Assembly (NCBI GenBank): GCA_030043405.1
Contig: JASHXS010000078.1
Coordinates: 1-13,895 of the forward strand
Direction: 5' to 3'
Origin: Thermoplasmata archaeon
GTDB taxonomy: Archaea > Thermoplasmatota > Thermoplasmata > Lutacidiplasmatales > UBA184
DNA: 13,895 bases
A model generated the notes under the pieces. That model saw only the letters and a list, made by a program, of their open reading frames with translations. It had not been told where the DNA came from and searched no databases. This document shows positions 3,987 to 10,851 of this stretch, piece after piece; the stretch's first letter is position 1, and each line of letters begins with the position of its first letter. The translations under genes were made by a program, and so were the position numbers.

Positions 3987-4907
3987 CTAGACGGCCGCGG
4001 GGCCGGTCTGCATCATCTGGATCGCCCGCAGCCCCACGACGAAAGCGCCGAGTGCGGAGAGTGCCGCGGAGGCGACGAGGACCAGCGGGAACGGGTCGCC
4101 CAAGGAGAGGAGCAGGAGGGCGAGCGGAGAGAACAACCCGGCGGCGCCGCCGACCACGCCCACCGCCGGACGGTCGGCCCGCAGCGTCAGGACCCCGGCG
4201 TAGGCGGCCAACACGGCGACGAGGCCGAGCAGGAGGATCCCGGCCCCGATCGAGGCCACGAACTGTTCGAGGTCGGTGAACGGGGTGAGGGCGTACGTCG
4301 AGGCGTTCGAGGGACCCCCCCGCGCCATCGACACCCCGAGGCCGGTCGCGCCGGCGGAGTACAGCGTGGAAACGAACGCGTCGACGGTGACCGGCGAGTA
4401 GCCCGACCGGGTGAACGTGATCGCGAGTCCGCCCGTCGGCAGGCCGGCGATCGAAAAGGACCCGTCGGCGCCCGTCGTGGTGCTCACCGACGCTCCGGAC
4501 TCCTCGACCACGGTGACCGTCACGCCTGAACCGGGCATCGTGCCGCCTGAGGCGGTCTGGAGTGTCACGCTCCCGTTCGTCGCGAAGCTGCCGGGGGCGG
4601 GTGCGATGACGGCATAGTACCCAAAGACCGCGGCGAGGACGACGGCGACGACCGCCACCCCGAAGAGGGTACCCGCGGCGACGGGCCGAGCCCGCCATCG
4701 GGGCAGTCGCGGGGGCGGCAGCGCGGGGTAAAGGCCCGGGATGACCTCCCAGGCGTAGAGCGGCGGTGGGTCCCGTGGGACGACCACCGGAACCGGGGCA
4801 TGGCAGTTCGCACACGGAAACCACTGCGTCGGGGGCGACGGGGCGAGGACCACCCGCAACGGGTGGCCGCACGCCGGACACCGCACCGAGACCGCCGGGC
4901 CGACCAT
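3987..4907 (-). CDS. Membrane protein: zinc ribbon, carboxypeptidase-regulatory-like domain, four predicted TM helices
   Basis: 306 aa. Domain order seen: an N-terminal zinc ribbon with CPAC (C10, C13) and CANC (C32, C35); a proline-rich linker (about 45-72); a strongly hydrophobic TM helix (about 77-101); a Ser/Thr/Gly-rich beta domain (about 112-178) with SGVTVTVVEESGA, TGADGSFSIAGLPTGG and RSGYSP, typical of carboxypeptidase-regulatory-like/CnaB-type folds; then three more TM helices (about 216-243, 247-268, 273-296). The likely topology puts the zinc ribbon in the cytoplasm and the beta domain outside. I do not recognise a named family; a surface or transport-linked role is only a guess. 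The gene diverges from the DUF99 gene and precedes the DUF72 gene by 25 bases. Confidence 0.75.
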   Translation of the reverse strand: MVGPAVSVRCPACGHPLRVVLAPSPPTQWFPCANCHAPVPVVVPRDPPPLYAWEVIPGLYPALPPPRLPRWRARPVAAGTLFGVAVVAVVLAAVFGYYAVIAPAPGSFATNGSVTLQTASGGTMPGSGVTVTVVEESGASVSTTTGADGSFSIAGLPTGGLAITFTRSGYSPVTVDAFVSTLYSAGATGLGVSMARGGPSNASTYALTPFTDLEQFVASIGAGILLLGLVAVLAAYAGVLTLRADRPAVGVVGGAAGLFSPLALLLLSLGDPFPLVLVASAALSALGAFVVGLRAIQMMQTGPAAV

Positions 4908-4930
4908 CGCCTTCGCTCGAGCGCGGACCG

Positions 4931-4940
4931 GGCTTTAGCC
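4931..4940 (-). promoter_or_regulatory. TATA-like element before the zinc-ribbon membrane protein
   Basis: On the minus strand GGCTAAAGCC lies 24-33 bases before the ATG at 4907, matching leaderless archaeal spacing. It is partly self-complementary (GGCT/AGCC arms) and abuts the TTG start used for the divergent DUF99 gene, so it cannot serve that gene in a simple leaderless way. The call is tentative because the motif is short. Confidence 0.35.
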
Positions 4941-5561
4941 TTGAGGCGCGCGCTCGGCAAGCCCCACTTCCACGTAGTAGCGGTCGATGACGGGGCGTTC
5001 GATCGACGCGCCCCCTGGGCCCCGCTCGCCGCGGTCCTGGCGGCCGTGCCGTCCCGGGTCGAAGCGGTCCGGATCGGCCGGGTTCGCGTCGACGGCACCG
5101 GCGCCGCCGCCACGATCGCCGAGCTGGTCCGGGCGACCGGGGGGCTGGAGAGCGTTCGGGCCGTGCTCCTCGACGGAGCGGTCGTCGGGGGCTTCAACGT
5201 GGTCGATCTCGACTTCCTCTCCAACGAGCTCGGAGTCCCGGTGGTCGCGGTCACCCGACACTCGCCGGACTTTCCGGCGATCCACGCGGCCCTCCGGAAA
5301 TGGTTCCCCCGCGACGCGGAGCGTCGCTGGCGGCTGCTGCGGGCGCATCGACTCTTCCCGTTGCCGGGGGCGCCGATGTGGGTCGCGGCGGCAGGATGCA
5401 GCCGAGCCGACGCCGCCTTGCTCGTGCGGCGGGCCGTGGTTGAGGGGCACGTCCCCGAGCCGCTGCGCCTCGCCCACCTGATCGCGTCGGCGGTCCCGCG
5501 GCCCGAGCGAAGGATTAAGGACGGCGGACCGCGTCGGAGGGGCCGCGGGCCTGTAGCTTAG
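4941..5561 (+). CDS. DUF99 family protein (endonuclease dU-like)
   Basis: 206 aa if read from TTG 4941 (Met-Arg-Arg-Ala-Leu-Gly-Lys-Pro). The family signature is clear: HVVAVDDGAF near the N-terminus, a central VRAVLLDGAVVGGFNVVDLDFL, then GVPVVAVTRHSP, and a C-terminal PEPLRLAHLIASAV. DUF99 proteins occur mainly in archaea and have been grouped with endonuclease V-like folds; one line of annotation calls them endonuclease dU, and function is otherwise open. The acidic residues in VDDG and LLDG are candidate metal ligands. The frame is open further upstream to 4800, but that part lies antisense to the neighbouring membrane-protein gene and is not family-like. Oddity: the reading frame continues past the expected family end (near PRPERR) through a basic tail. 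Its stop (TAG 5559-5561) lies inside the tRNA gene, overlapping it by 15 bases. Confidence 0.85.
   Translation: MRRALGKPHFHVVAVDDGAFDRRAPWAPLAAVLAAVPSRVEAVRIGRVRVDGTGAAATIAELVRATGGLESVRAVLLDGAVVGGFNVVDLDFLSNELGVPVVAVTRHSPDFPAIHAALRKWFPRDAERRWRLLRAHRLFPLPGAPMWVAAAGCSRADAALLVRRAVVEGHVPEPLRLAHLIASAVPRPERRIKDGGPRRRGRGPVA
5514..5518 (+). promoter_or_regulatory. TATA-like core for tRNA-Arg, inside the DUF99 gene
   Basis: ATTAA, within GGATTAAGG, is the only AT-rich stretch before the tRNA. It lies 29-33 bases upstream of the tRNA 5' end, the usual archaeal distance. It is embedded in the last codons of the DUF99 frame. Confidence 0.4.
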
Positions 5562-5653
5562 CACGGACGAAGCACTGGCCTTCTAAGCCAGGGAACTCGG
5601 GTTCAAAGGCCGGGGGAGGTCACCGCCCCCGACGGAGACTCCCGACAGGCCCG
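5547..5653 (+). tRNA. tRNA-Arg (anticodon TCT) with a T-loop intron
   Basis: Pairing is perfect throughout once an insertion is removed. The acceptor is GGGCCTG (5547-5553) with CAGGCCC (5646-5652), 7/7, then discriminator G5653. The D-stem is GCTT (5556-5559) with AAGC (5570-5573), and the D-loop carries GG. The anticodon stem is CTGGC (5575-5579) with GCCAG (5587-5591), and the 7-nt loop CTTCTAA gives anticodon TCT (5582-5584), which reads AGA. The T-stem is TCGGG (5597-5601) with CCCGA (5641-5645). The T-loop TTCAAA (5602-5607) resumes with T at 5640, restoring TTCAAAT. The mature RNA is 75 nt plus CCA, which is not encoded. U8, A14, G18, G19, T54, T55, C56 and A58 are all present. Read without an intron, the acceptor and T-stem fail. 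The 5' end overlaps the DUF99 stop. Confidence 0.88.
5608..5639 (+). other. Probable 32-nt tRNA intron at position 59/60 (T-loop)
   Basis: This segment separates TTCAAA from T-CCCGA in the tRNA-Arg T-arm. Its core can form a hairpin, CGGGGG (5611-5616) with CCCCCG (5626-5631), with a 9-nt loop. Boundaries could shift by one base either way (TTCAA|CT or TTCAAAG|C). I could not fit a strict bulge-helix-bulge with 3-nt bulges and a 4-bp central helix. The best partial match is TTC (5602-5604) with GGA (5634-5636), a short helix, so any processing motif would be relaxed. Archaeal introns outside 37/38, including in the T-arm, are known, mainly in Thermoproteales. Confidence 0.75.
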
Positions 5654-5693: not shown

Positions 5694-7226
5694 ATGTATT
5701 CCAGGATGGGCGCCAGCATCCCAATCCCTCGGGAGCTGATGGACTTCCTGAAGCTCCCCGGCCCCCAGTCCCTGTTGATCCGGGGCCCGCCCGGTTCCGG
5801 GAAGACGAGCCTCTCGCTCGCCCTGCTCGAGGCCTTCTCGGGCGCGCGCTACTACATCACGAACCGCGTCCCCGGGGAGGACGTGCTCCTCGCCTTCCCG
5901 TGGATCGGCGAGAACAGCTCGCGGGGGATCAAGGTCGTCGACAACACGGGGGAGTCGGTCAACCTCGCCCAGCGCGCCCGGCTCTTGATCCAGCCCGTCC
6001 CCACGGTCCTGATGGACTCCCCGGCCGAGTCCCAGGAGCTCACGGAGTTCCTCTGGCTCCCCGAACCGCTCCAGGAGGTCTGGAGCCGACTCGAGCCGAA
6101 CCGACCCGCCCTGGTGATCATCGACTCGTGGGATGCGCTCGTGGAAGCGTACCTGGGGACCCGCACCACCGGCGCCGTCGACCTGCCGTCGCGCGAGGAG
6201 ATCGAGCGGGCGTTGATCCGACGGATGGGCCGCAGCCGCACCCATCTGCTGTTCGTCCTCGAACGGGAGGAGCAGACCCATCTCGACTGGCTGGTGAACG
6301 GGGTCACCGTCACGAGCCGCGAAGTGGTGCACGACCGGCTCGAACGCTGGCTCACGCTGTACAAGCTGAGGGGGGTTCGGATCGAGAACCCGGTGTACCC
6401 CTTCTCGCTCGACTCGGCCCACTTCGAGTGCATCCTCCCGCTGAAGCCGTACTCCCACCTCCGCGGCGGGCGATTCGACCCGATGCCCGAGGTCATGCCG
6501 GGCCACCTCTGGCCGGGCTCGAAGGCATTCGCCGCCAGCTTCGGGCGGCTTCCGCTCGGCGGAACGACCCTCATCGAGGCCGACCGCGAGGTACCGAACC
6601 ACACGTCCGAGATCCTGCTGGCCCCGGTCCTGGCGAGCACCCTGGAACGGAACGGCCACGTGCTCATGGTCCCGAACCCGAACACGTTGCCCGAGGACGT
6701 CTGGGCCTCCGTCCACGGCTGCGTCGACAAGCACCGATTCCTCTCGAACGTTCGATTCCTCCTCCCCCCGCCCGGGCCCAACCAGCGCTCGTCGGAGTTC
6801 GACGCGGCCGCCGTCCACCTGGGGCGCCGCACGCCGGCGTCCATGGGCCATCCGTCGGAGGAAGCGAGCCTCGAACGATTCCTGCGCTCCGGCGCGTCGG
6901 CCGAGTCCCCCGGTCTCCTCATCGTGTTCGCCCAGGGCCTACCGGCCCTGGCCAATTCGTTGGGCCTCGCCTGGAGTGCCGAACTCGCGACCCAGTTGCC
7001 GAGCCAGATCCAGTCCGCCGTCCGCGGCTCCCCGCTCCACGCGGTCGTCGTCGGGGTCACCGACTCCCCGATGCTCGACCCGATCCGGCCGACGGCGGCA
7101 CTGAGGCTCCACCTGCATCAGCGGCAGGGGCGCGTGTTCCTGTACGCCTCGGACCCCTGGACGCCCACCTTCGTCCTGACGGAAGGGACGGACCAGTCCC
7201 CGTACGGTCTCCTTCGGGTCGTTTAG
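5694..7226 (+). CDS. KaiC/GvpD-like RecA-superfamily ATPase
   Basis: 510 aa, probably cytoplasmic. The first domain (about 10-250) has an intact Walker A, GPPGSGKTS at 31-39, and a Walker B strand ALVIIDSWDAL with D144. The strand after the P-loop reads YYITNRVPGEDV (53-64), like the ITTRVSPE of archaeal GvpD-like proteins, and lacks the paired glutamates of circadian KaiC. The second half (about 280-505) keeps a RecA-like rhythm of beta strands (TTLIEADRE, HVLMVPNPN, GLLIVFAQG, HAVVVGVTD) but has no P-loop, so it looks like a degenerate second domain. The start is ATG 5694, or ATG 5706 if the TATA-like TCTATTA (5674-5680) drives a leaderless mRNA. No gas-vesicle genes are nearby; instead it is followed by signalling genes, so a regulatory ATPase is likely. 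Substrate and partner are unknown. Confidence 0.75.
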   Translation: MYSRMGASIPIPRELMDFLKLPGPQSLLIRGPPGSGKTSLSLALLEAFSGARYYITNRVPGEDVLLAFPWIGENSSRGIKVVDNTGESVNLAQRARLLIQPVPTVLMDSPAESQELTEFLWLPEPLQEVWSRLEPNRPALVIIDSWDALVEAYLGTRTTGAVDLPSREEIERALIRRMGRSRTHLLFVLEREEQTHLDWLVNGVTVTSREVVHDRLERWLTLYKLRGVRIENPVYPFSLDSAHFECILPLKPYSHLRGGRFDPMPEVMPGHLWPGSKAFAASFGRLPLGGTTLIEADREVPNHTSEILLAPVLASTLERNGHVLMVPNPNTLPEDVWASVHGCVDKHRFLSNVRFLLPPPGPNQRSSEFDAAAVHLGRRTPASMGHPSEEASLERFLRSGASAESPGLLIVFAQGLPALANSLGLAWSAELATQLPSQIQSAVRGSPLHAVVVGVTDSPMLDPIRPTAALRLHLHQRQGRVFLYASDPWTPTFVLTEGTDQSPYGLLRVV

Positions 7227-7317: not shown

Positions 7318-7821
7318 GTGGCCGCGCTCCGATATCTGGTGGTCGACGACTCGCCGACGGTCCGCCTGACCATCCGCCAGGCGCTCCGTCAGGAGTCCAC
7401 TCCCGCGCGGATGGTCTCCGAGGCGGAGACCGCGGAGGAGGCGATCACGAAGTTCAACGCCGAGCGCCCGGACGTCGTCTTCCTCGACATCGACCTCACC
7501 GGAGGCGACCTCGGGCCGGCGGAGCCCGGGGGTCGGTTGGACCTGCTCCATCCCACCGCCGACAACCACCGCGACGCCCCCAATGTGGCCCGGTACATGC
7601 TGCAGAAGAACGCGAAGCTCAAGATCGTGGTCTGCACCGGGAACACCACCGACGACTCGCGCGTGCGCGAGTTGATCAAGCTCGGGGCCTTCCACGTCCT
7701 CTCGAAGCCCGTCCACCTGGCGCAGATCCGGGAGGTCCTGAAGGACGTCCGGGCCGAGCACGACCAGATGGTGGACGAACCCGAGGAACCGTCCGCCGAC
7801 CGGTATCAACGCGGTTTCTGA
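7318..7821 (+). CDS. Single-domain response regulator with an enlarged beta3-alpha3 loop
   Basis: 167 aa from GTG 7318. It is a receiver domain with acidic pair D10-D11 in LVVDDSPTVR, phospho-acceptor D57 in VVFLDIDL, the conserved Thr in IVVCTGNT, and the Lys in VLSKPVHL. There is no DNA-binding or enzymatic output domain; the short acidic tail after about residue 145 is probably disordered. The oddity is an insertion of about 25 residues after D57, between GGD and VARYMLQKN, where ordinary regulators have a short MPGMDG-type loop. The insertion is rich in Gly, Pro, His and Asp (GPAEPGG, HPTADNHRDAP) and sits beside the phosphorylation site, so it could alter partner choice. A CheY-like intermediate or a phosphate acceptor for the nearby HPt is plausible but unproven. 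It is convergent with the receiver-HPt gene, with stops two bases apart. Confidence 0.85.
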   Translation: MAALRYLVVDDSPTVRLTIRQALRQESTPARMVSEAETAEEAITKFNAERPDVVFLDIDLTGGDLGPAEPGGRLDLLHPTADNHRDAPNVARYMLQKNAKLKIVVCTGNTTDDSRVRELIKLGAFHVLSKPVHLAQIREVLKDVRAEHDQMVDEPEEPSADRYQRGF

Positions 7822-7822
7822 G

Positions 7823-8929
7823 CTACTTCGCGGCGAGCTCGGCGTCGACCGCCCGCTCCACCTCCCCCAGGTCCCGAACGACCCGACGGACCGTGGCGGA
7901 ACGGAGGGCGGCGTCCGAGACGCCCCGTTCCAGCTCCGCACACCGGGCGGCCAGTTCGTGGGCGCCCAATTGGGCACACGTCGATTTGAGCTGATGGGCG
8001 ATCCGGGCCAGGCCGGCCGCATCCCCGCGGGCGTCAGCCGTCTGCAACAGGCGAACCAGCCGGCCCGCCTCTACGTGGAACGTCGCGACGAGGTTCGGCA
8101 GGAACTCCGGGTCGGTGCGGGCCATCTCCCGAAGCTGGGTCCACGTCTCAACGTCCAGGGGACGGACCCGCTCTCGGGGCGTTGGGGCGGGAGCCCGGGG
8201 GGGACCTCGCTCCCAGAGCCAGACGAGGTGGCGGGGGCCGATCGGGGTGGGGAGGAGGCGGACGACGGCCAGTACGATCCCGATCGAAGGGTCGGTGGAG
8301 GGGAGGAAAGTGGCCGCGCCGGACTCCGCTCCGCCGGACGGGGGCAGGAGCCTCAGCAGAGGTCGCAGATCCTCCGGGACTTCGGATCCGGGCCCCGAGC
8401 TCGGCCCGGCCCACCGGCCGAATTGCTCGTTCGAGTCGACGACCCGCTCCCGGTCGATGATCGCTCCCGCGACGCCCCGAGACGAAAGGTCCGTCCACGG
8501 TCCCGAGAGGGGGGCACCGGTACGACCGACACACGACTCGACCTGCTGCCGGGCCACGGAGCGGCGGACGGCGTCCCCCAAGACGCCGCTCGGGAAGATC
8601 CCCTTCACCAAGTGATCTTGGGCTCCCGCCCCGATCGAGCGTGGGGTGAGGTCGGGGTCCTCCGCGCCGGAGAGCAGGAGGACGGCCACGTCCGGCGCTC
8701 GGGCCCGAAGGGCCCGGATGCCGGCCAGGTCGTGGGAGTCCGGAAGCCCGCGGTCGAGCAAGACGGCGTCAATGCGTTCCGTGGCCAGTCGCGCAACGGC
8801 GGCCGCCACGCGGTCGGCTCGGAGGGACTCGTACGGTCCCTCCGGCTCGTGACTCAAGGTCCATTCGGCCAGGCGGGCATCCGCCGGATTGTCCTCGACG
8901 ACGAGCACCCGCAGCGGCGGGCCGGGCAT
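7823..8929 (-). CDS. Receiver - linker - HPt phosphorelay protein
   Basis: 368 aa. Residues 5-128 form a receiver domain: VLVVEDNPADARL (E12, D13), phospho-acceptor D59 in AVLLDRGLPDS, LLLSGAED, and K-G in HLVKGIFP in place of the usual Lys-Pro. Residues about 145-250 are poorly conserved and Pro/Gly-rich, with a PAS-like hint (GAIIDRERVVDSNEQFGRW). Residues about 262-368 are a four-helix HPt domain with phospho-histidine H312 in IAHQLKSTCAQLGA, followed by AARCAELE. The protein can therefore accept phosphate on Asp and carry it on His, the intermediate steps of a multistep relay. There is no kinase ATPase domain. GCGGAGG at 8934-8940 supports the ATG. It lies 19 bases downstream of the Rcp1-like regulator gene on the same strand, so probably in one transcript with it. 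Confidence 0.85.
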   Translation of the reverse strand: MPGPPLRVLVVEDNPADARLAEWTLSHEPEGPYESLRADRVAAAVARLATERIDAVLLDRGLPDSHDLAGIRALRARAPDVAVLLLSGAEDPDLTPRSIGAGAQDHLVKGIFPSGVLGDAVRRSVARQQVESCVGRTGAPLSGPWTDLSSRGVAGAIIDRERVVDSNEQFGRWAGPSSGPGSEVPEDLRPLLRLLPPSGGAESGAATFLPSTDPSIGIVLAVVRLLPTPIGPRHLVWLWERGPPRAPAPTPRERVRPLDVETWTQLREMARTDPEFLPNLVATFHVEAGRLVRLLQTADARGDAAGLARIAHQLKSTCAQLGAHELAARCAELERGVSDAALRSATVRRVVRDLGEVERAVDAELAAK

Positions 8930-8933
8930 GGTG

Positions 8934-8940
8934 CCTCCGC
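8934..8940 (-). promoter_or_regulatory. Shine-Dalgarno of the receiver-HPt gene
   Basis: On the minus strand GCGGAGG lies four bases before ATG 8929 and supports that start. It is in the 19-base gap after the preceding regulator gene, consistent with translation from a shared mRNA. The same gap holds the 8-base palindrome GGGCGCCC (8942-8949). Confidence 0.55.
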
Positions 8941-8948
8941 GGGGCGCC

Positions 8949-9401
8949 CTACTCGTCGGGCAGTTCGACCGCAGTGAACCAGAACCCCTCGATCGTCTTC
9001 ACGACCTCGTGGAACTGGGCGAAGTCGATGGGCTTGCGGACGTAGCAGTTCGCGTGTTCGTCGTACGCCCGGGCGATGTCCTCCTCGGCCTGCGAGGACG
9101 TCATGATCACGACGGGGATCCGGCGGAGCAGCGGGTCCGATTTCACCTCGTGCAGGACTTCCCGTCCGTCCTTCTTGGGCATGTTGAGGTCCAGGAGGAT
9201 GAGGCTCGGCCGTGGGGCCCCGGCATGCTTGCCTTGCCGGCGCAGGAAGGCCATCGCCTCGACCCCATCCGGGGCCCAATGGATCTCGTTCAGGATCTTC
9301 GACTCACGCATGACTTCGCGCACGAGGCGTGCGTCCGCCGGGTTGTCTTCCGCGAGAAGGATCTGCACGGGTCGGCTGCGGTCGGGCCCCGGCGCGGTCA
9401 T
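8949..9401 (-). CDS. Rcp1-like response regulator (phytochrome-kinase partner type)
   Basis: 150 aa single receiver domain. Visible are LLAEDNPADARLV (E18, D19), phospho-acceptor D71 in LILLDLNMPKKDGREVL, IPVVIMTSSQAEEDI with the conserved Thr/Ser, the YDEHANCYVRKPID motif with the conserved Lys, and the tail VVKTIEGFWFTAVELP. The combination NMPKKDGREVL, AEEDI, ANCY and FW is the hallmark of the Rcp1/CheY-like subgroup that commonly accompanies phytochrome-type PAS/GAF histidine kinases. There is no output domain. Its neighbours fit: the kinase gene of the matching type lies 61 bases upstream and the receiver-HPt gene 19 bases downstream, all on the minus strand. D71 is the likely direct acceptor from kinase H216. 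Confidence 0.9.
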   Translation of the reverse strand: MTAPGPDRSRPVQILLAEDNPADARLVREVMRESKILNEIHWAPDGVEAMAFLRRQGKHAGAPRPSLILLDLNMPKKDGREVLHEVKSDPLLRRIPVVIMTSSQAEEDIARAYDEHANCYVRKPIDFAQFHEVVKTIEGFWFTAVELPDE

Positions 9402-9415
9402 GGCATACGAAGATA

Positions 9416-9429
9416 CGGGGGCACCCCCG
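9416..9429. repeat. Short inverted repeat CGGGGG-CA-CCCCCG upstream of the Rcp1-like regulator
   Basis: Perfect 6-base arms around two bases, 14 bases before the ATG at 9401. It lies between that start and the AT-rich AAGTATTACC (9431-9440, minus), so it would sit in the promoter core or very early leader. It could be a protein-binding site, a hairpin, or chance in GC-rich DNA. Confidence 0.4.
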
Positions 9430-9430
9430 A

Positions 9431-9440
9431 GGTAATACTT
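9431..9440 (-). promoter_or_regulatory. TATA-like element for the Rcp1-like regulator and receiver-HPt genes
   Basis: AAGTATTACC on the minus strand is the only AT-rich stretch in the 61-base gap after the kinase gene, 30-39 bases before ATG 9401. It suggests the two regulators can be transcribed without the kinase gene. Confidence 0.4.
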
Positions 9441-9462
9441 TCGTCCGGCGCGCGGGGCGCCC

Positions 9463-10851
9463 TCAGGCGAGCTCGCGCAACCGGTCTTCGATCAGGTCGT
9501 GGGCCCGGACATTCACGGCCTTCTGCTCGGCGGTCAGCGCCGGAGCGGGCGCGATCGGGGGGGCCCGCTTCTCGGCCGGGATCGTGAACCAGAAGGTCGT
9601 CCCCTTGCCGGGCTCGCCCGTGCTCTCGACCCAGATCCGGCCGCCGTGGCGTTCCACCACCTTCTGCGTGACGGCGAGACCGATGCCGGTGCCCGGGTAC
9701 TCCTCGCGGGAGTGGAGACGCTGGAAGATGACGAAGATGCGGTTCTGATATTCCGGCGCGATGCCGATCCCGTCGTCCTTCACCGAGAAGAGCCAGTCGG
9801 GTCCCTTCCGGACCGCCTCGACCCGGACGTGGGGCGCCCCCGGTCCGCGGAACTTGATGGCGTTCCCGATCAGGTTCTGGAAGACCTGGGCCAGCTGCGT
9901 GGGGTCCCCGAACACCCGGGGCATCGGCCCGTGGGTCACCTCGGCCTTAGCCTCCTCGATCGAACCTCGGAGATTCTGCAGCGCCCGATCGAGCACCTCC
10001 TCGACCGAGGTCTCGCGCAGGGGCTGGGCGCGGGTCCCGAGCCGGGAATAGTCGAGCAGGTCGTCGATCAGCTCCCGCATTCGGGTCGCACCCTCCTGCG
10101 CGTAGCCCAGGAACTCCTTCGCGTCGGTGTCGAGCCGGTCGGCGTAGCGGTTCGAGAGCAGCTGGGTGTAGCTCCCGACCATCCGCAGCGGCTCCTGGAG
10201 GTCGTGGGACGCGATGTACGTGAACTGCTCGAGCTCTCGGTTGGAGCGTGCGAGTTCCGCCGCGCGGCCCGCCAGCGCCTCGACGAGGGCCTCCCGCTCG
10301 ACCAGGTCGCGCAGGTGGATCCCCACGAGCGTCCGTCCTCGGCGGGCCACGGCGCGCAGGACCAGCTCCAGCGGGACCGTAGTTCCGTCGGGTCGGAGTC
10401 CCCGGAGCTCCAGACTCACGGGTGGACTGTTCGGCTGCTGCTGGGCGACCTGAGTCCGCACGTTCTCCCGCGCCTCGGGCACGAACAGCTCCACGCCGGA
10501 GCTCCCCACGATCTCCGATACCGGCCGGCCGAATATCTCGCCCACCGTCGGGTTGGCGAATCGGACTCGAAGCGTCGGATCCACCAGCATGAGCCCGCCG
10601 ACCGGGAGGTCGAAGAGCAGTCGGGTCTGCTGGTCCTCGAGCGGGCTCGCACGGAGGCTGAAGATCCAGACCCCGGTGGCCAGCACGATCAGGACCAGGG
10701 CGGCCACGATCGCTCCCAGGCGAAGGTCGGTGTAGCTTCCGGAGGGAGTCAGCTCGTGGAAGACAGCCCAGACGACGAGGGCCACGACCCCGGCGGCGAG
10801 CAGGCCCCCCATGATGCGGTTGCGCCATTGGACGGTGCCCGGCCCGCTCAT
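9463..10851 (-). CDS. Membrane PAS-domain sensor histidine kinase
   Basis: 462 aa. Two N-terminal TM helices (about 13-31 and 44-66) enclose a short external loop. A PAS domain follows (about 75-190; LLFDLPVGGLMLVDPTLRVRF, GRPVSEIVG, RPDGTTVPLEL), then a coiled segment (ALAGRAAELARSNRELEQF). The HisKA phosphorylation site is H216 in YIASHDLQEPLRMV. The ATPase domain carries the N box NLIGNAIKF (N326, N330), the G1 box DDGIGI (D360), FQRLH, the G2 box GTGIGLAV and TTFWFTIP. The HDLQEPLR form is typical of the phytochrome-like kinase class that partners with Rcp1 regulators, as here. A Pro/Ala-rich tail with a final helix (about 430-462) follows the kinase core and may dock a partner. The external loop is only about 12 residues, so the signal is probably sensed in the membrane, by PAS, or by the upstream 7-TM protein. 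The ligand is unknown. Confidence 0.92.
   Translation of the reverse strand: MSGPGTVQWRNRIMGGLLAAGVVALVVWAVFHELTPSGSYTDLRLGAIVAALVLIVLATGVWIFSLRASPLEDQQTRLLFDLPVGGLMLVDPTLRVRFANPTVGEIFGRPVSEIVGSSGVELFVPEARENVRTQVAQQQPNSPPVSLELRGLRPDGTTVPLELVLRAVARRGRTLVGIHLRDLVEREALVEALAGRAAELARSNRELEQFTYIASHDLQEPLRMVGSYTQLLSNRYADRLDTDAKEFLGYAQEGATRMRELIDDLLDYSRLGTRAQPLRETSVEEVLDRALQNLRGSIEEAKAEVTHGPMPRVFGDPTQLAQVFQNLIGNAIKFRGPGAPHVRVEAVRKGPDWLFSVKDDGIGIAPEYQNRIFVIFQRLHSREEYPGTGIGLAVTQKVVERHGGRIWVESTGEPGKGTTFWFTIPAEKRAPPIAPAPALTAEQKAVNVRAHDLIEDRLRELA

Follow-up and report, generated by a model that had tools for sequence, protein, structure and literature searches.

In passages of reviews (PMC4090602, PMC4033280, PMC6379350), Euryarchaeota with alpha4 or alpha'2 splicing endonucleases are described as poor in tRNA introns, which lie exclusively at the canonical position, and non-canonical positions or relaxed motifs are tied to (alpha beta)2 or epsilon2 enzymes. 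The relevant passages of PMC4090602 place introns in fewer than 10% of euryarchaeal tRNA genes, all at the canonical position, and include 59/60 among the known non-canonical archaeal sites. Thermoproteales and other Crenarchaeota, which have (alpha beta)2 endonucleases, carry non-canonical introns, 59/60 included, at bulge-helix-bulge sites in many tRNAs per genome. Outside the Thermoproteales, parts of PMC11291895 describe many non-canonical tRNA introns in the Asgard Atabeyarchaeia and Freyarchaeia, with introns in 92-95% of genes and more than half with several, and parts of PMC3218864 report non-canonical introns in three thermophilic euryarchaeal methanogens as well as permuted tRNAs of Thermofilum pendens that are joined at 59/60.

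The intron of the tRNA-Arg(TCT) gene described here is of a known kind, but the cited reviews would not lead one to expect it in this lineage or with this type of enzyme. Like the crenarchaeal introns, it occupies a non-canonical bulge-helix-bulge site used in many tRNAs of the genome, but it belongs to another phylum with another enzyme, and 59/60 dominates, accounting for 12 of the 14 non-canonical introns in a complete genome of the genus (G029). With the 37/38 introns of Euryarchaeota it shares the 3-4-3 bulge-helix-bulge logic and the enzyme type, and differs in position and in number, since introns are present in 18 of the 41 tRNA genes found in that genome. Unlike the Asgard tRNAs, also of another phylum, the genes resolved here have one intron each, mostly at one site. 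The T. pendens joints involve the same T-loop bond, whereas exon order is normal here, and to the methanogens already reported the present case adds the Thermoplasmata.

Among the matches listed in our search of the open-licence literature, mostly titles and abstract starts, no prior paper on T-loop introns in Thermoplasmata or Methanomassiliicoccales was found. The Lutacidiplasmatales paper PMC9287336 used tRNAscan-SE 2.0.5, and the word 'intron' is absent from its main text. Prior reports or tRNA-database entries on such introns are possible, and the training set of tRNAscan-SE 2.0 suggests that some euryarchaeal cases are known to specialists. As far as seen, four elements appear to be new: how many T-loop introns a Thermoplasmata genus carries, their concentration at one bond, a rule at position 57 and their co-occurrence with an alpha'2 endonuclease.

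The window, that is, the whole 13,895-nucleotide stretch of DNA that was analysed, comes from a genome (G000) that is 56% complete and comprises 1.17 Mb in 226 contigs. On the sequence evidence, the tRNA-Arg(UCU) gene that it contains is very probably functional, belongs to a Lutacidiplasmatales-type archaeon (Thermoplasmata) and has a 32-nt protein-spliced archaeal intron at 59/60. The features of the locus are as follows, all on the + strand.

5507-5520, + strand: BRE/TATA-like element GCGAAGGATTAAGG, putative promoter, 27-40 bases before the start of the tRNA
5547-5607, + strand: exon 1 of tRNA-Arg(TCT), from the 5' end to A59 of the T loop (cloverleaf scripts, ARAGORN, alignment)
5608-5639, + strand: 32-nt intron at site 59/60 (genus search, alignment, covariation, cloverleaf script)
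5640-5653, + strand: exon 2, with T60, the 3' strands of the T and acceptor stems and discriminator G73 (cloverleaf, alignment)
5547-5553 with 5646-5652, + strand: acceptor stem (cloverleaf)
5556-5559 with 5570-5573, + strand: D stem (cloverleaf)
5575-5579 with 5587-5591, + strand: anticodon stem, anticodon TCT (cloverleaf)
5597-5601 with 5641-5645, + strand: T stem (cloverleaf)
5602-5607 and 5640, + strand: T loop, split into TTCAAA and T (cloverleaf)
5653, + strand: discriminator base G
5602-5605, + strand: central helix, 5' strand (T54 T55 C56 A57), facing 5634-5637
5634-5637, + strand: central helix, 3' strand (intron GGAG), with G5634 opposite A57 as an A/G mismatch
5606-5608, + strand: 5' bulge AAG, predicted cut after 5607, between the second A and G
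5638-5640, + strand: 3' bulge ACT, predicted cut after 5639, between C and T
5609-5633, + strand: intron-internal hairpin, 5609-5616 with 5626-5633, one C/A mismatch, 9-nt loop

Excision of 5608-5639 restores the full cloverleaf, with 21/21 stem pairs Watson-Crick and the T loop TTCAAAT, and the original prediction of a tRNA-Arg(TCT) at 5547-5653 with this insert was exact in coordinates and sequence. Both ARAGORN and Rfam report a single tRNA for the whole window. ARAGORN calls tRNA-Arg(tct) at the locus but places its ends at 5548-5624, and the Rfam tRNA model matches at 31.4 bits and leaves 18 of its positions around the T arm unmatched. When exon 1 was held and the 150 bases downstream were dinucleotide-shuffled, a chance second exon supplied the full 12 T-stem and acceptor pairs in 2 of 20,000 shuffles.

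A search of 37 genomes of the genus, the window's own included, matched the Arg(TCT) gene in 33, with the insert spanned every time; these gave 34 matches, G007 contributing two, both interrupted, and no match was obtained in G003, G012, G020 and G023 (65-73% complete). The alignment comprises 32 of the 34 matches; G019 and G024 were read separately and both have the intron. Across the 32 rows, 63 of the 75 columns of the two exons are invariant and the intron sequences vary. We regard this conservation, within the limits of genome sequence, as decisive for the reality of the interrupted gene. A pattern search for a contiguous Arg(TCT) copy matched in 0 of 41 genus genomes, and G029 and G018 have one Arg(TCT) gene each, interrupted. 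A search for the second gene copy that, according to the original prediction, could refute it was negative: another Arg(TCT) gene was found neither in the window's genome (56% complete) nor in G029 (100% complete), and an intronless copy was not found in relatives within the genus.

At 59/60 the junction forms a near-canonical bulge-helix-bulge, in which the T stem serves as the outer helix and the intron hairpin as the inner helix. In the window gene two 3-nt bulges fit, with cut sites predicted from the known rule for cutting within 3-nt bulges, and the central helix has three pairs plus the A57/G mismatch, a relaxed form. The statement made with the original prediction that no strict bulge-helix-bulge could be fitted holds for the window gene itself because of A57/G; a near-canonical fit nevertheless exists, with predicted cuts after the second base of each bulge, and all four central pairs are present in 11 of 29 T-loop introns from three genomes of the genus. 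This set of 29 comprises the 28 introns at 59/60 in G000, G029 and G018 that were used for position 57 below, together with the Arg(TCT) intron of G018 (L077). At least three central pairs occur in 29/29, and at least three central together with at least three of four inner pairs in 27/29; shuffled introns reach this combination in 1.5 cases on average and in no more than 6 (1,000 rounds). The central-helix test alone is weaker, as shuffles give at least three pairs in 8/29 on average and 16 at most.

Covariation among the Arg(TCT) introns of the genus shows that the structure is kept while the sequence changes. In each of the 31 distinct rows the intron offers standard pairing partners to T54, T55 and C56, and 7 of the 8 hairpin pairs show change on both sides. 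For the three central and eight inner pairs, paired cells amount to 94.7% vs 81.2% in shuffles, cells changed on both sides to 33 vs 8.3, and the covariation score to 0.415 vs 0.177, with 0/500 shuffles as high on these three measures; pairs with double-sided change number 7 vs 4.7, and 15/500 shuffles reach this value. It should be noted that the shuffle comparison is inflated by the relatedness of the rows; this relatedness is retained in slid controls, in which the partner was moved by 1-3 columns and the covariation score was 0.095-0.170.

Position 57 appears to follow a rule. Among the 28 introns at 59/60 in G000, G029 and G018, G57 has C opposite in 11/11, with four central pairs in 10 of these, and A57 has G opposite in 16/17 and T in 1/17; orthologues are non-independent, and the isoacceptors behind the pattern number about five for G57 and eight for A57. 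tRNA-Asn, which has G57-C in two genomes (one with an adjoining C56/C mismatch) and A57-T in the third, shows a compensatory change inside one orthologous set. A scripted count over the class covered 91 distinct Arg(UCU) introns: the base opposite G57 is C in 36/36, and that opposite A57 is G in 54/55 and A in 1/55. The introns with A57 also fit a register slipped by one base, with three pairs and 4-nt bulges, the two registers being indistinguishable. Arg(UCU) introns that were read measure 29-39 nt with A57 and 19-131 nt with G57.

Several alternatives deserve consideration. The intron might be spliced at another T-loop bond (56/57, 57/58 or 58/59), and the scripts do return mature cloverleaves that are equally good or nearly so for 56/57 and 58/59. 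We prefer 59/60 because 3-nt bulges then arise with the T stem intact as the outer helix, and because, with splicing at 56/57, 5 of the 32 rows (L040, L041, L044, L055, L057) would lack A58. The bond 58/59 is disfavoured by the bulge-helix-bulge fit only, and the cloverleaf script itself rewards a bulge-helix-bulge, so that its output is not independent evidence for the exact bond; on balance, splicing at a bond other than 59/60 seems very unlikely. A second alternative is that the insert is retained in a mature tRNA with an enlarged T loop and an extra hairpin. The conserved shape of the hairpin would agree with retention, yet the length of the insert is free within the ranges given above while its ends facing the T loop are constrained, and two genomes of the sister family (G037 and G039) have contiguous orthologues with exactly the predicted mature T loop, TTCAAAT. 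Retention would also make T54-C56, which take part in the usual D-loop contact, unavailable for it, and we consider it highly improbable. A disrupted, non-functional gene (pseudogene or insertion scar), whose loss might be tolerated since AGA is unused in 14 predicted frames of the window, is barely credible and strongly disfavoured given the invariant exon columns, the covarying intron structure, the TATA-like box upstream of most genus loci and the contiguous replacement copy not found in 41 genus genomes.

As to expression of the gene, 29 genus loci have 70 bases of upstream sequence; in 26 of them TTAA or TTAT starts at -32 to -28 and at no other place in that stretch. The 4,386 codons of the 14 predicted window frames include 0 AGA and 11 AGG, and the absence of AGA counts against our favoured explanation. 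The same is true of three structural results: the imperfect motif of the window gene (A57/G, and the C/A mismatch of its hairpin), the minimum-energy structure of the full precursor, which differs from the splicing-competent fold, and the isolated T arm with intron, which is no stabler than shuffles (z -0.75, 45/200 as stable).

The tRNA genes of three genus genomes were surveyed by RF00005 searches and intron-aware scripts applied to the stretches around matches; genes missed by RF00005 are uncounted. G029 (100% complete) gave 41 genes from 42 matches (L116 gave none), with 12 introns at 59/60, 4 at 37/38 and 2 in the D arm, 23 of the 41 genes being without intron. G018 (94% complete) gave 38 genes from 38 matches and 11 introns at 59/60, and G000 gave 23 genes from 27 matches (4 gave none) and 6 such introns. 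The 59/60 set of G029 comprises Asn GTT, Gly TCC, Arg TCT, Arg TCG, Glu CTC, Gln CTG, Ala GGC, Asp GTC, His GTG, Ser GCT, Ser GGA and Ser CGA. Annotation is affected, as ARAGORN called 3 of these 12 genes with wrong 3' ends and missed the other 9. D-arm introns of about 28-37 nt were also observed in tRNAs with anticodon CAT, which we take to be initiator-like, and in Arg(GCG) (G029 L099 and L107; G018 L139 and L148; G000 L024).

Two ideas on why these tRNAs carry introns were considered. Rare-codon bias was rejected as a cause, since T-loop introns also occur in tRNAs with anticodons GGC, GTC, CTC and CTG, which read common codons in GC-rich genomes, and codon rarity thus does not explain them. 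The idea that the introns shield tRNA genes against integration was approached through a tyrosine-recombinase search of 78 genus genomes (70 with a match). No tRNAs were found within about 1.5 kb of the best 30 matches, which were judged Xer-like, and two lower-scoring G029 recombinases lie near tRNAs by coordinates; the search was uninformative and was weighed neither way.

Beyond the genus, general and contiguous Arg(TCT) patterns were searched over 300 Thermoplasmata genomes, with family tallies counted by hand. Genes counted as interrupted matched the general pattern and not the contiguous one; Arg(TCT) genes with a 37/38 intron or a different T stem (e.g., in family f11) escape both patterns. 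The gene was matched in 39 of 41 genomes of the window's genus, in 21 of 21 of the other genera of its family (contiguous in 4, all of genus g28) and in 41 of 43 of the family of UBA593 (f8; contiguous in 16, genera g53 and g8). In the sister family f2 it is contiguous in 2/2, and the remaining families searched mostly have contiguous genes or no pattern match. In named genomes, at least 118 stretches matched the interrupted-tRNA pattern, the matches listed being mostly 'Thermoplasmata archaeon' records, including Candidatus Lutacidiplasma silvani AcS3-62, together with Methanomassiliicoccales (Candidatus Methanoplasma, Methanomassiliicoccaceae, Methanomethylophilaceae and Candidatus Methanomicula).

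Reading base by base placed the intron at 59/60 in 78 of 80 named loci examined, the other 2 being cut by the locus end and similar in look. Among 30 survey loci, 7 have a 59/60 intron and 19 are contiguous, and the script returned no tRNA for the remaining 4, of which G038 (f3) shows by eye a 13-nt insert at 59/60; a further 19 usable loci comprise 16 with a 59/60 intron, 2 contiguous and 1 cut short. Families with 59/60 introns are f1, f3, f4, f5, f8, f10, f16 and f33, of which f4, f10 and f16 include introns with weak inner stems (1-2 of 4 pairs), and family f13 possibly has one of 131 nt without an inner stem at the expected place. The gene is no singular oddity, given 12 and 11 such introns in two nearly complete genus members and T-loop introns in other Thermoplasmata families too, and the genomes indicate that 59/60 introns are a lineage trait.

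Intron gain and loss look frequent from the sequences compared, with the T-loop cases on the same bond. For example, Ala(CGC) and Arg(CCG) are uninterrupted in G029 and carry 59/60 introns in G037 of the sister family f2. The low-scoring matches examined in G037 (14), G056 (3) and G051 (3), a subset of the tRNAs of these genomes, are mostly genes with 37/38 introns. In G037, L383 is a tRNA-Gly(CCC) with a 72-nt 37/38 intron containing two copies of the near-palindrome ACCTTTCTTAAAAAGAAAGGTT. Interrupted archaeal tRNA-Arg(UCU) genes also appear in records named Atopobium sp. UBA1382 and 'bacterium' clean3188 (L198 and L215). The L198 intron is identical, except for one base, to the intron in L193, a Methanomassiliicoccaceae record, and, as far as the sequences tell, both record names are probably wrong.

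All 24 genomes searched have the splicing endonuclease (PF01974), and so does the window's genome, where it is cut off by the contig end and represented by its C-terminal part only. Two PF01974 matches lie within one open frame in 9 of 9 genus genomes searched. The protein has about 350 aa (start chosen by eye), and its C-terminal repeat aligns with A. fulgidus EndA, with Y, H and K, presumably the catalytic triad, kept at aligned places. The crenarchaea-specific loop before the LSLIE-like strand is absent, the alignment following native A. fulgidus EndA without the insert of the 3p1y chain, which we take to be that loop. The same identity of the insert follows from part of the text on the engineered A. 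fulgidus enzyme in PMC6379350. By its two fused repeats with a C-terminal catalytic triad, the genus enzyme is classed as a fused alpha'2-type endonuclease without the crenarchaeal loop, with homodimer formation predicted. An epsilon2 (ARMAN) endonuclease was rejected, as it needs three units with the catalytic unit in the middle. The question of substrate range that came with the original prediction is thus a real one.

This enzyme type does not track the intron, since the same fused endonuclease occurs in genomes without the Arg(TCT) T-loop intron (e.g., G037, G039, G044, G053). The ligase RtcB is present in 7 of 8 genomes searched; no copy turned up in the 56%-complete genome of the window, which counts against the favoured explanation, as does the description of alpha'2 endonucleases, in passages of PMC4033280 and PMC6379350, as cutting canonical motifs only. 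A strict enzyme may cope because the motif is near-canonical, so that what is unusual is the position and hardly the motif.

Taken in sequence, transcription would start from the TATA-like box, and the intron hairpin would stack on the helix of T54-T55-C56(-A57) with GGAG, leaving the two 3-nt bulges, an arrangement that is conserved and partly covarying. The alpha'2-type endonuclease would then cut inside each bulge, as expected from the enzyme family and the motif, the exons would be joined by RtcB, whose gene is present in relatives, and the mature T loop TTCAAAT could fold. The genomic data thus support the original proposal that a functional tRNA-Arg(TCT) of a euryarchaeal-type archaeon has a T-loop intron at 59/60.

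The recurrence of such introns in about a dozen tRNAs in each of the two nearly complete genus genomes surveyed is probably due to the T-loop half of the helix being nearly identical in all tRNAs. More broadly, we tentatively suggest, at somewhat less than even confidence, that the Thermoplasmata T loop acts as a shared intron docking site. The near-universal T54-T55-C56-R57 would provide one helix strand, so that one intron design fits any tRNA and introns are gained at one bond (up to a dozen per genome, and in different tRNAs in the sister family) under an alpha'2 enzyme without the loop. If this is true, intron position in archaea would be limited by the sites that can form the motif rather than by the type of enzyme, and acceptance of a relaxed helix by this alpha'2 enzyme would follow from the A57/G form. 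With many T-loop introns, an alpha'2 enzyme and no crenarchaeal loop, the lineage is, at the genomic level, a counter-case to the reviews, and the model of enzyme-intron co-evolution becomes open to a direct test, for which a single purified enzyme and two substrates (A57/G and G57-C) would suffice.

The neighbourhood of the gene offers further observations. An Endo_dU (DUF99, PF01949) open frame at 4800-5561 runs through the promoter-like box and overlaps the tRNA by 15 bases, its stop codon TAG (5559-5561) being made by T13-A14-G15 of the tRNA. Downstream, response-regulator and PAS/histidine-kinase frames occupy 7318-10851 (7823-9401 judged by eye), beside a frame at 5694-7226 with a GvpD P-loop match.
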